From an uncultured Eubacteriales bacterium (GTDB lineage Bacteria; Bacillota; Clostridia; Oscillospirales; Acutalibacteraceae): 39,885 nucleotides of DNA. The notes under the pieces were generated by a model. It was not told the DNA's origin, did not search any database, and saw only the letters and a program-made list of their open reading frames with translations. Positions 33,983 through 39,885 of this stretch are shown here, one piece after another. The stretch is from contig ONCX01000006.1 in assembly GCA_900316455.1 (NCBI GenBank), forward strand, positions 1 through 39,885, read 5' to 3'. The translations under genes were made by a program, and so were the position numbers. Positions within the stretch are counted from its first letter, which is position 1, and each line of letters opens with the position of its first letter.

Positions 33983-34023
33983 TTAATATATTAAAAGTGT
34001 TTATTATTGAGGAGTTTTAGATA

Positions 34024-36501
34024 ATGATGTGTTTGAAGAACACAAAAAATAGCAAAAACATTAAAAAGTACCGCTGGGGAATTGTAGGTACAGGCAGAAT
34101 GGCAAATACATTTTGCCGTGCGTTGAGTCAGGCTGAGAATGCTGAAATTACAGCCGTTTATTCACGCACTCTCAAAAACGCGCAGAAATTCGCGGGTAAA
34201 TTTGGAATTGCCTCGGCATACGACAGCGTGATCGAACTGGCGTCTGACGAGAATGTGGACATAGTGTATATTTGCACTCCGCATACAAATCACGCTGAAA
34301 GCTCGCTTGCGGCAATTGCCTGTGGCAAGGCTGTTTTGTGTGAAAAGCCTGTAGCTATCAATTCCCGTCAGGCGAAGGCGGTAATAGAAGCGGCAAAGGA
34401 AAAGAATGTGTTCTTCATGGAAGGCATGTGGACAAGGTTCCTCCCTGCGATAATAAAGGCAAGCGAGTGGATAGACGAAGGTCTTATCGGCGAGGTCAAG
34501 GAGGTCAACGCTGCGTTTTTCGGAAAAACAAAGTATGACAAATCAGACCGCGTTATTTCCTTTGAGCTTGGGGGAGGCGCACTGCTTGATATTGGCGTTT
34601 ACAATATCTTCCTCGCGCAATGGCTTCTTGGCGGCAGACCGGGTGAAATCAGATCGACGGCGGTTCATTGTGAGAACGGCATCGACTGGCAGTCAGCAGC
34701 GGTTATGAAATTCTATAAGGGCGGTACGGCGTCCGTCTCCTGCGGGTTGGAATACAACTCCAATCACGCCGAAATAATCGGAACCAAAGGTATGATATTA
34801 TTGCCTGATTTTGTCAGAGCGGGCACGGTCTACGCCATCAGGGACAGCAAAATTATTCGTGAATACAGCGATTCTGACACTACGGAAACGAAATACGGAT
34901 ATGAGATAAAGCATGTGACCGAATGCCTTGAAAAGGGACTGACAGAATCTCCGATGTATCCCACATGGATGTCATTCGATATACTTGACACATGCGACAG
35001 GCTTCGCGCCGACTGGCATCAGGTATATCCGGGAGATAATTACATTCCCGCGTTGCCGGAGGTGAAGATAATGCCTAAAGAAAGCGTTCCGGAGAATTCA
35101 TCAGCAATACAGACAGCCGGACTTCCGGCGAAGCTTCCAAAGCTATCGAAGGCAGTACGTAAAAACAGCGCGCCTGACTGGTATCGTGACGCGGCGTTTT
35201 ATCATATTTATCCCATAGGCTTCTGTGGTGAAAACCGCAGCAATGATTTTACATCACAGCCGACCGGAAAGATCCGTAATCTCATACCGTATGTAAAGCA
35301 CATTAAAAGATTGGGCGCAAACGCCGTTTATTTCGGACCGGTGTTTGAATCGTCCAAGCACGGTTATGATACCGCTGATTACCGCGTAATTGACCGCCGT
35401 CTCGGAACCAACAGGGATTTTGCCGACGTATGCGCCGAGCTTCACAAAAACGGAATAAAGGTCGTGCTCGACGGCGTATTCAATCATGTGGGCAGAGATT
35501 TCTGGGCGTTTAAGGACGTAAAGCAGCACAAATGGGATTCCGCTTTCAAGGACTGGTTCAATGTCAAATTCGACGGGAACTCAAATTATAACGACGGCTT
35601 CTGGTACGAGGGCTGGGAAGGGCATTACGATCTGGTAAAGCTCAATCTTCGCAATGCTGACGTAAAAAGACATATTTTCAGCTGCATAGAGGGCTGGGTA
35701 AATGAATTCGGTATTGACGGACTCAGGCTCGACGTCGCCTATTGTCTTGATAGAGATTTTCTGCGGGAGCTGCACGATTTCTGCAAGGGAAAATGGAATG
35801 ATTTCTTCCTTTTGGGCGAATGTCTCCACGGGGATTACAACATTTGGTGCAATGATTCAATGCTCGATTCTGTGACGAATTATGAGTGCTACAAGGGACT
35901 TTATTCATCATTCAACTGCGCCAATATGCACGAGATCGGATATTCACTCAACAGACAGTTTGCCGATGAGCAGTGGACGATTTATAAAGGCAAGAATCTC
36001 TACTGTTTTGCCGATAACCATGACGTTACTCGTATTGCGTCAATTCTCACAGATAAGAGCAATCTTCCGCTTGTATATTCGCTGCTGTTTGCAATGCCCG
36101 GAATACCGTCGGTTTACTACGGAAGTGAATTCGGGCTTGAAGCTCAAAAGAGCCAGGGCGACGACGCTCTGCGCCCTGAATTTTCCGAAAAGATTGCCGA
36201 GAGCGAATGGAATCCGCTTGCCGCGTATGTCAGCCGTCTTTATTCCGTCAGGGAATCATCCGTCGCTCTCTGCCGCGGAGGATACAAGCAGCTGCATATC
36301 AATTCCAAGCAGCTTGTATTTCTCAGGCAGTTTGAAGGAGAACGCGTGATATTTGCGCTTAATATGGATAATGCTCCGTATACGGCACATTTTGATGCGG
36401 GATCTTCCGGAGGAACCGACCTTGTAACCGGTCAGAAAATTGATTTCAACGGCGGTTTGAATATTCCTGCCAAAACAGCTTATATAATAAAAACAAACTG
36501 A
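34024..36501 (+). CDS. Fusion of Gfo/Idh/MocA oxidoreductase and GH13 glycoside hydrolase
   Basis: This is a single open frame of 825 residues. Residues about 15-340 form an NAD(P)-dependent Gfo/Idh/MocA oxidoreductase: Rossmann motif GIVGTGRMA, C-E107-K108-P109 with the usual catalytic Lys, and L-D189-I-G-V-Y193 in the substrate domain. A Pro/Ser/Lys-rich linker (about 345-383) joins a GH13 (alpha-amylase clan) domain from 384. Its four motifs are intact: D483-G-V-F-N-H488, G-L-R-L-D570, G-E599-C and N-H-D667, giving nucleophile D570, acid/base E599 and D667. There is no signal peptide, so it acts in the cytoplasm. It follows mltG by 41 nt with GGAG before the ATG. The substrate is unknown. 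Confidence 0.9.
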   Translation: MMCLKNTKNSKNIKKYRWGIVGTGRMANTFCRALSQAENAEITAVYSRTLKNAQKFAGKFGIASAYDSVIELASDENVDIVYICTPHTNHAESSLAAIACGKAVLCEKPVAINSRQAKAVIEAAKEKNVFFMEGMWTRFLPAIIKASEWIDEGLIGEVKEVNAAFFGKTKYDKSDRVISFELGGGALLDIGVYNIFLAQWLLGGRPGEIRSTAVHCENGIDWQSAAVMKFYKGGTASVSCGLEYNSNHAEIIGTKGMILLPDFVRAGTVYAIRDSKIIREYSDSDTTETKYGYEIKHVTECLEKGLTESPMYPTWMSFDILDTCDRLRADWHQVYPGDNYIPALPEVKIMPKESVPENSSAIQTAGLPAKLPKLSKAVRKNSAPDWYRDAAFYHIYPIGFCGENRSNDFTSQPTGKIRNLIPYVKHIKRLGANAVYFGPVFESSKHGYDTADYRVIDRRLGTNRDFADVCAELHKNGIKVVLDGVFNHVGRDFWAFKDVKQHKWDSAFKDWFNVKFDGNSNYNDGFWYEGWEGHYDLVKLNLRNADVKRHIFSCIEGWVNEFGIDGLRLDVAYCLDRDFLRELHDFCKGKWNDFFLLGECLHGDYNIWCNDSMLDSVTNYECYKGLYSSFNCANMHEIGYSLNRQFADEQWTIYKGKNLYCFADNHDVTRIASILTDKSNLPLVYSLLFAMPGIPSVYYGSEFGLEAQKSQGDDALRPEFSEKIAESEWNPLAAYVSRLYSVRESSVALCRGGYKQLHINSKQLVFLRQFEGERVIFALNMDNAPYTAHFDAGSSGGTDLVTGQKIDFNGGLNIPAKTAYIIKTN

Positions 36502-36503
36502 AT

Positions 36504-36540
36504 AAAAGCCGGAGGGATTTTTGATATCCGTCCGGCTTTT
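36504..36540. terminator. Bidirectional intrinsic terminator
   Basis: AAAAGCCGGA (36504-36513) pairs with TCCGGCTTTT (36531-36540). T-runs on both strands serve the convergent fusion gene (plus) and fprA (minus). Confidence 0.88.
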
Positions 36541-36572
36541 TAAGTTAAAATATTATTTTTTTAATTTTTTAA

Positions 36573-37733
36573 TCAGCCAAGAAGCTCGTCCGCTAATTTA
36601 ACCATCGCGTCGGGAGTCTCACCCTTGAGAGATGATTTAATTGAAACCACGGTATTCAGAACCTTAACGTTCTTCATGCTTTCTAACTGTGTTTTCATCA
36701 GCTTTGCAGCCATAGGAGTCCATGTGCCGTTTTCAATCAGACCGACAGTGCGGTTCTGATAATCCTTTGATTTAAGTTGATTCAAGAATCTGTCCATAGG
36801 AGTGAACATACCCATATTGTAGGTTGAGCATGCAAGCACCATTCTGTCATACCGGAACGCGTCCTCAACAGCCTCGGCGATATCTTCGCGGGAAAGGTCT
36901 GCAATCGAAACCTTAGGAGCGCCTTTGCTTTCCAGAAGCTCCTTGAGACGCATTGCGGCGGCTGCGGTGTTGCCGTGAATGGAAGCGTAGGCGATGAATA
37001 TACCCTTGTCCTCCGGCTCAAAGCTGCTCCATACACGGTACTTGTCGATGTAGTAATCGAGATTCTCGCTGAGAATCGGACCATGGAGCGGGCATATCAT
37101 CTGAATATCCAATTTGTCGAGCTTTTTGATAACAGACTGAACCTGTGCGCCGTATTTGCCCACAATGTTGAAGTAATAGCGCCGTGCTTCACACGCCCAG
37201 TCCTCATCGGTGTCAAGCGTGCCGAACTTGCCGAACGCGTCCGCTGTGAAGAATATCTTGTCCTTGCTGTCGTAGGTCATCATAACCTCAGGCCAGTGAA
37301 CCATCGGCGCCATGGCGAACGTTAGAGTGCGCGAACCGAGGTCGAGAGTATCGCCTTCCTTTACGACGATCTTTCTGTCGGAAATATCGTAAGAATAGAA
37401 CTGATCGTAGAAAGCGAATGTTTTTGCGTTGCCGACGATTTTCATTTCAGGGAACATCTCGGCAAGAATCTTAATGCTGCCGGTATGATCAGGCTCCATA
37501 TGCGAAATAACGAGGTAATCCGCCTTTTTATCACCAAGAGCCTCCTTTACATTGCCGACCCATGCTTCGGTTTTGCGCTTGTCAACGGTGTCCATAATGC
37601 AGATCTTTTCGTCCATAATTGCATATGAATTGTAAGCCATACCGTTTGGAACATCGAACTGGCTTTCAAAGAGATCGAGATCAGCGTCGTCACAACCGAT
37701 GTAAATGACGGAATCAGTGAGCTTTTTAACCAT
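36573..37733 (-). CDS. fprA: A-type flavodiiron protein (oxygen/NO reductase)
   Basis: The 386-residue protein reduces O2 to water and/or NO to N2O, protecting anaerobes. An N-terminal metallo-beta-lactamase-like domain binds the di-iron site: H78-M-E80-P-D82-H83, H146 in M-V-H-W-P-E, D165 in T-A-D-A-F-G and H217 in C-P-L-H-G-P. A C-terminal flavodoxin domain for FMN starts at I-F-I-A-Y-A-S-I-H-G-N-T. ATG 37733 is preferred because AAGGA lies 9 nt upstream, whereas ATG 37742 directly abuts that site. It needs an electron donor, which the flavin reductase-rubredoxin at 38797 can supply. A regulator gene lies between them. Confidence 0.95.
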   Translation of the reverse strand: MVKKLTDSVIYIGCDDADLDLFESQFDVPNGMAYNSYAIMDEKICIMDTVDKRKTEAWVGNVKEALGDKKADYLVISHMEPDHTGSIKILAEMFPEMKIVGNAKTFAFYDQFYSYDISDRKIVVKEGDTLDLGSRTLTFAMAPMVHWPEVMMTYDSKDKIFFTADAFGKFGTLDTDEDWACEARRYYFNIVGKYGAQVQSVIKKLDKLDIQMICPLHGPILSENLDYYIDKYRVWSSFEPEDKGIFIAYASIHGNTAAAAMRLKELLESKGAPKVSIADLSREDIAEAVEDAFRYDRMVLACSTYNMGMFTPMDRFLNQLKSKDYQNRTVGLIENGTWTPMAAKLMKTQLESMKNVKVLNTVVSIKSSLKGETPDAMVKLADELLG

Positions 37734-37782
37734 AAAAATCATTCCTTATTTTTAATTTAGCTGCATATTGCCGCATAACTAT

Positions 37783-39489: not shown

Positions 39490-39885
39490 TTAATCCGCAT
39501 AAATCATTGCAATGACAATAATTATATTAATGATAAGACCGATAATACCTGTGATCAGACCCGCTGTGGAAACGCCTGTAGGTCTGGAACCGTCATTCTT
39601 TGCCTTTGATATTGCCGCGAAGATAACGCCGAGCAGCGACGGAACAATAGTGCAGCATGAAACCAAACCTACACACGAACATATGAGCGATGCTATCGCA
39701 AATCCGTCTGTGGTGTTCTGCTGAGAAATAAGCGCGGGATCAACCGGCGCATATTGATAATAAGGCTGTTGGTTAATTGCCTGCGGCGGTGCTGATTGCG
39801 GCTGCTGATACTGCGGCTGCTGATACTGCGGCTGCTGATACTGCGGCTGCTGATACTGCGGCTGCTGGTATTGCGGCTGCTGATA
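39490..39885 (-). CDS. Partial CDS, DUF4190-like small membrane protein with YQQPQ repeats
   Basis: The frame is open from the right edge to a TAA at 39492-39490 and gives 132 residues. It begins with at least six Tyr-Gln-Gln-Pro-Gln repeats (39796-39885), then a Pro/Gln/Tyr-rich linker. Two hydrophobic helices follow (F-A-I-A-S-L-I-C-S-C-V-G-L, and the last 28 residues G-L-I-T-G-I-I-G-L-I-I-N) with a charged loop between (S-K-A-K-N-D-G-S-R-P-T-G). This layout matches DUF4190-type membrane proteins, whose function is unknown. The N-terminus lies beyond the window and may hold a zinc ribbon, as in many relatives. Confidence 0.75.
   Translation of the reverse strand, partial: YQQPQYQQPQYQQPQYQQPQYQQPQYQQPQSAPPQAINQQPYYQYAPVDPALISQQNTTDGFAIASLICSCVGLVSCCTIVPSLLGVIFAAISKAKNDGSRPTGVSTAGLITGIIGLIINIIIVIAMIYAD
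39796..39885 (-). repeat. 15-nt tandem repeat encoding YQQPQ
   Basis: Six consecutive 15-nt units (CTGCGGCTGCTGATA on the plus strand, with small changes in units 1, 5 and 6) run up to the window edge. They are in frame with the partial membrane protein and probably continue beyond the window. Confidence 0.92.

Follow-up and report, generated by a model that had tools for sequence, protein, structure and literature searches.

The window analysed here is a stretch of 39,885 nucleotides covering positions 1 to 39,885 of contig ONCX01000006.1 (assembly GCA_900316455.1), from an uncultured Eubacteriales bacterium of the clostridial family Acutalibacteraceae. A gene on its forward strand (34024..36501) encoded 825 amino acids and a stop codon in one open reading frame with no internal stop, joining a Gfo/Idh/MocA oxidoreductase to a GH13 glycosidase. 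Pfam placed GFO_IDH_MocA at residues 17-134 (5e-29), a C3 domain at 145-258 (2.8e-20) and Alpha-amylase at 395-719 (9.1e-49). The oxidoreductase half (residues 15-340, 34066..35043) scored 101.9 bits with PF01408 (cut-off 24) and 73 bits with PF22725 (cut-off 27). The GH13 half (residues 385-825, 35176..36498) comprised a catalytic barrel and a C-terminal beta domain, the Pfam matches of the latter falling below their cut-offs. Between them lay a linker (residues 341-384, 35044..35175). GC content and third-position GC were alike in the two halves (0.475/0.526 in one, 0.465/0.519 in the other), and thus gave no hint of a recent foreign insertion. A sequence of GAGGAG (34009..34014), nine bases 5′ of the ATG, is a likely ribosome-binding site.

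A preliminary description of this gene had reported a single 825-residue frame undisturbed at the joint, an EKP motif at residues 107-109, all four GH13 motifs and the triad D570/E599/D667. The frame and motifs were confirmed and the residue numbers were exact. It had also held that both halves look active, and the sequences bear this out: active-site residues of both halves were intact in all 19 fused proteins compared, a set from which two gene pieces at contig ends (L011 and L016) were left out. In the oxidoreductase half the conserved residues were G19, G22 and G24 of the glycine-rich loop, which we take to bind the nucleotide, the EKP motif (34342..34350), with its presumed Gfo/Idh/MocA role, and Y193 (34600..34602). 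H87, W136 and R138 each differed in one of the 19. In the GH13 half, D483, N487, H488, R568, D570, E599, H666 and D667 were present throughout. The positions of the nucleophile (D570, 35731..35733), the acid/base (E599, 35818..35820) and the third acid (D667, 36022..36024) were moreover invariant in all 107 GH13 cores of a wider set, which was biased towards long frames and excluded L066, whose frame was broken by a stop.

The same one-frame architecture was recovered when genomes were searched. A scan of GTDB genomes yielded 27 named loci, 14 of which, at 72-86% identity, carried the two halves as a single frame, while 11 matched the oxidoreductase half alone. L011 spanned the junction before its contig ended, and L016 was the remainder of the same gene from the same metagenome-assembled genome (RUG700). 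Within the window's genus 16 of the 18 genomes matched, and 14 of the 18, including the window's own, had the gene at full length without a stop. Another full-length match (G1330) was listed with two internal TGA codons, and in G1329 the gene was divided between two contigs; G1325 (98% complete) and G1331 (78%) gave no match. In a sample of 300 genomes from the family the fusion was present in at least eight, again counting the window's own, of which at least four lay outside the genus at 48-53% identity. The genus, family and named-locus sets overlap in part, and their counts should not be summed. Samples at higher ranks yielded no additional Gfo fusion, whether in the order sample (295 genomes; GH13 query, with frame length as the criterion), the class sample (391 genomes, whole-protein query) or the phylum sample (398 genomes, GH13 query). 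The GH13 core itself, at E values up to 1e-80, was confined to the class (nine of the 398 genomes in the phylum sample, all of that class).

An error of assembly or sequencing that merged two genes could be imagined, as the window comes from a draft genome in 69 contigs. The preliminary description had named such an artefact, with relatives encoding two separate proteins and a missing stop or a frame error at the joint, as something that would overturn it. Relatives instead carried one frame. The recurrence of that uninterrupted frame in the genus, in the 14 named loci and in the more distant genomes of the family leaves an artefact with next to no probability, and we rejected it. The reductase-GH13 architecture is real and conserved. 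In one of the related loci (L049, 8163-10643, minus strand) an open frame of 826 amino acids ran antisense to the fused gene and was probably a by-product of codon composition.

Trees were built for each half by quick IQ-TREE searches with SH-aLRT support only. The GH13 tree used 100 of the 107 cores, seven near-duplicates being dropped, and the Gfo tree used 42 of 43 domains, L020 being left out (a 22-residue frame). The 12 fused rows formed one clade in each tree, with SH-aLRT support of 99 in both. The window's genus formed a group in each tree, as did the pair L047 and L049, and L048 and L050 were additional branches. A single clade for each half fits one fusion event followed by joint inheritance. 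Nonsynonymous divergence (dN) from 14 close relatives was 0.60-1.35 in the linker, against 0.07-0.24 for the Gfo half and 0.06-0.14 for the GH13 half; only dN was used from the codon-substitution analysis, since for many of these 14 pairs synonymous change was either saturated or undefined. The linker also varied among the fused proteins in both length and sequence, which makes a conserved rigid joint unlikely.

The best solved relative of the oxidoreductase half was the dimeric dihydrodiol dehydrogenase 2o48, presumably from monkey (E 1.2e-49; next solved chain 1.6e-45), and the alignment covered residues 16-338 of the fused protein. Residues K97, Y180, R37, H76, H79, W125 and R127 of 2o48 were all matched. 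We take K97 and Y180 (K108 and Y193 here) to be the catalytic lysine and tyrosine, and R37, to which R48 was aligned, and the pocket residues to have their presumed roles. On these alignments we lean towards a dihydrodiol-dehydrogenase-type reductase. The Gfo/Idh/MocA family also includes some glycosidases, and chains of DgpA, which we take to be a C-deglycosylation enzyme, appeared among the matches of this half. It might then itself perform NAD-dependent glycosidase chemistry on a keto-glucoside supplied by the GH13 half. We consider this very improbable, as the match to dihydrodiol dehydrogenase (1.5e-49) far exceeds that to the best DgpA chain (3.8e-21) and no GH109-type name occurred among the best 60 of 91 matches.

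The window's genome (88.6% complete) gave no Gfo/Idh/MocA match other than the fused copy, and it had one GH31 match. According to passages of a 2025 review (PMC12441222), dihydrodiol dehydrogenase acts in humans as a more efficient 1,5-anhydrofructose reductase, and 1,5-anhydrofructose arises as a side product of retaining GH31 glucosidases. The two halves could on this basis form a metabolite-repair pair, in which the GH13 half or the GH31 enzyme, acting on alpha-glucan by elimination rather than hydrolysis, leaks traces of 1,5-anhydrofructose and the reductase converts this to 1,5-anhydroglucitol or 1,5-anhydromannitol. Such a pair is a specific version of the two-step catalyst suggested in the preliminary description, which was to cleave an alpha-glucoside and oxidise or reduce the product. 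The matched key residues, the GH31 match and the single, retained origin of the fusion would all suit it. However, dihydrodiol-dehydrogenase-like enzymes accept other substrates too, and the other partners of the GH13 core, described below, are not explicable by 1,5-anhydrofructose. In addition, no Gfo-like sequence was found outside the GH13 frame in 93 GH13 loci taken with flanks of a few kb, stand-alone members among them; the closest proximity seen was in G124, where some 13 kb separated a Gfo relative from the GH13 gene. We therefore regard a repair pair as an attractive but tentative and rather unlikely explanation.

For the GH13 half the best solved relative was the cyclomaltodextrinase 1ea9 (E 2.6e-54). 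The named cyclomaltodextrinase equivalog NF041090 gave 189.3 bits against a cut-off of 540. Judged from its sequence, this half is probably a neopullulanase- or cyclomaltodextrinase-like hydrolase of alpha-glucans. The genes beside relatives' GH13 genes, named by eye, included an inorganic-pyrophosphatase-like gene on the opposite strand in 11 loci, and pyruvate-kinase-like, ribosomal-protein-L19-like and ABC-F-like genes in seven loci each. A pullulanase-like gene, also named by eye, stood near the GH13 gene in five loci; of these recurring neighbours it alone hints at glucan breakdown.

The GH13 core was fused to many partners besides the oxidoreductase. Among the 107 sampled cores, 43 had no recognised partner (seven of these with unexplained tails of 83-143 amino acids), 23 carried DUF1653, 19 Gfo, 16 an unnamed helical domain and two TadA, with one each for an M18 aminopeptidase, a GNAT acetyltransferase, a gamma-carbonic-anhydrase-like hexapeptide domain and a CobA/CobO-type corrinoid adenosyltransferase. 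The M18 domain of L051 scored 496 bits in NCBIfam (cut-off 356), the GNAT domain of L052 55.4 bits in Pfam (cut-off 20.7) and the adenosyltransferase of L107 174 bits in Pfam (cut-off 25.7), with 132 against 168 in NCBIfam. The hexapeptide domain of L053 reached 178 against a cut-off of 250. For TadA, L129 gave 150.3 bits against a cut-off of 150, and L127, at 135.8, was under it. The labels DUF1653 (as in L063) and helical domain (as in L091) were assigned by phmmer comparison with a single example of each. In the GH13 tree the helical-domain, Gfo and TadA forms each fell on one side of a single branch, and the distribution of DUF1653 required four changes. The helical domain was limited to one GH13 clade (16 of the 107 proteins). 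It is a C-terminal segment of about 50-60 amino acids (EEMTVEELQ...KNGPVTDYM...SLVNWVKSF; L091, 5091-5276, and 15 other loci), for which Pfam gave no partner match in either L091 or L128, and NCBIfam none in L091. About 80 extra amino acids, seen by eye, seemed to lie inside the GH13 C-terminal beta domain of two further proteins (L136, 1652-3328, and L097, 2791-4410, both minus strand).

TadA is an essential tRNA deaminase of Escherichia coli, and it appeared to be carried as the tail of a GH13 enzyme in L127 (3220-5109, minus strand) and L129 (2967-4832, minus strand). In G937, a single-contig genome rated as 100% complete, the sole other match to the fused TadA was 34% identical, in a frame of 371 amino acids, and was probably RibD, judged by length. 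The fused copy thus seems to be the organism's only TadA. In the 93 GH13 loci, M18 was the sole partner for which similar sequence turned up outside the GH13 frame. On the same strand as the GH13 gene, an unfused M18 gene lay immediately upstream in L068 and, again upstream, at a distance of about 2-2.5 kb in both L052 and L101. A second, distant M18 was present in all four genomes queried. The M18 fusion is most simply explained, from this arrangement, as a joining of neighbouring genes.

Two controls were run. The FprA-type protein encoded next to the fused gene, present in 97 of 150 genomes, fell mostly into two size classes in the family, of about 384-501 and 595-673 amino acids. A paralogous GH13 gave seven rows in six of 150 genomes (587-647 amino acids), too few for comparison. 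As extra domains occurred in the FprA-type control too, we make no claim that the rate of GH13 fusion is statistically unusual and refer to the diversity of partners only. In the window this neighbouring flavoprotein gene, named by eye, lies at 36573-37742 (minus strand), and the size classes point to a frequently added domain there too.

This diversity could mean that the GH13 core is an alpha-glucan anchor or sensor, tethering unrelated enzymes to an intracellular glycogen-like polymer or coupling them to glucan supply, with hydrolysis secondary. There are eight kinds of partner, at either end of the core and in several cases with linkers rich in Pro, Glu, Ala and Lys, and they share no common pathway, TadA being among them. 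On the other hand, the invariant triad argues that enzyme function has been kept, 43 cores (in a long-frame-biased sample) have no recognised partner, although seven of them bear the unexplained tails noted above, and the M18 case looks like a fusion of neighbours. It is therefore improbable that this Clostridia-specific core acts as a general glucan-responsive carrier for a reductase, TadA, a corrinoid adenosyltransferase and an aminopeptidase.

The reading that we favour, at a probability of roughly 0.55, is a bifunctional protein whose two enzymes, each self-sufficient and with its catalytic site intact, are joined by a flexible tether. From its N-terminal sequence the protein is predicted to be cytosolic. 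Its C-terminal half would be a retaining enzyme that hydrolyses alpha-glucans, akin to neopullulanases and cyclomaltodextrinases. Its N-terminal half would be an NADP(H)-dependent reductase or dehydrogenase resembling dimeric dihydrodiol dehydrogenase, with a small sugar-like carbonyl as substrate, the best guess being 1,5-anhydrofructose or an aldose. Each half would work independently, the two having been fused once, in an ancestor within one Clostridia family, and presumably inherited together since. The two-step catalyst of the preliminary description thus stands as far as intact halves and a conserved fusion are concerned. Its shared pathway does not follow, because the core is joined to seven other partners without a common pathway and fusion alone is no proof of one.

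Several observations weigh against two autonomous tethered enzymes. The fusion with Gfo has been retained from one origin across several genera, and the pairing itself may be useful. One nearly complete genome of the genus, G1325, lacked the fused gene at the threshold used. Neither half reached the cut-off of any of the best 25 of 56 NCBIfam families, and the suggested cofactor preference is read from one aligned arginine. The structure prediction proposed in the preliminary description was run with AlphaFold on 15 close sequences. It gave a poor model (predicted local distance difference test, pLDDT, 62.7; predicted template modelling score, pTM, 0.51), from which no domain interface could be judged. 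Residues 348-382 fell below a pLDDT of 50, but 290 of the 825 residues were equally low.

Upstream, the fused gene followed the same gene row in 12 of the 14 close loci, the nearest member in the window being mltG (YceG). Nine neighbours in L047-L050 were scanned with Pfam; one had no match, and the others included LexA, a solute-binding protein, GNAT, SDR, DUF6273, YfhO and a shikimate-dehydrogenase-N domain. The neighbourhood gave no guide to the reductase's substrate, and no wider sugar operon was seen. Downstream, a hairpin with flanking A and T runs (36504..36542) lay between the fused gene and the convergent FprA-type gene. It was spotted by eye as a possible terminator and was absent from the output of a program scan. 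At the window's end (39490-39885, minus strand) a protein with a YQQPQ repeat run before membrane-like segments was cut by the window edge.

No description of a reductase-GH13 fusion appeared among the open-licence PubMed Central records listed (12 of 460 in one search), nor, in titles and abstract openings there, of recurrent fusions of this GH13 core; within that search the architecture is undescribed. The wider fusion habit of the core is a more surprising finding than the pairing. If the pairing is functional, a single bacterial protein would tie alpha-glucan breakdown to a reductase resembling dihydrodiol dehydrogenase, and would offer a clean test of bacterial repair of 1,5-anhydrofructose from glucan hydrolysis. 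If it is not, one GH13 core with eight kinds of partner, TadA included, is a warning against inferring pathways from fusions.

Compared with known systems, the GH13 half shares its barrel, four motifs and triad with the cyclomaltodextrinases and neopullulanases 1ea9, 1wzl and 5zxg. The neopullulanase subfamily GH13_20/21 has a CBM34-type N-terminal domain, whereas no such carbohydrate-binding domain was among the Pfam matches of the fused protein, and stand-alone relatives such as L055 likewise start at the barrel. These stand-alone Clostridia proteins of about 440 amino acids, without a partner, show 57% (L055) and 61% (L116) identity across the length of the GH13 half. The fifth-motif signature of the neopullulanase subfamily is MPKLN, according to a passage in PMC9781549; the GH13 half has LVKLN at 537-541, which differs but retains the middle lysine. 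The other GH13-core fusions have the same core joined to a partner by a linker. Their partners are unrelated to Gfo/Idh/MocA and sit at the C end of the core, M18 excepted. Finally, 2o48 and the primate 1,5-anhydro-D-fructose reductase are stand-alone mammalian proteins, whereas here their relative forms the N-terminal half of a fusion.
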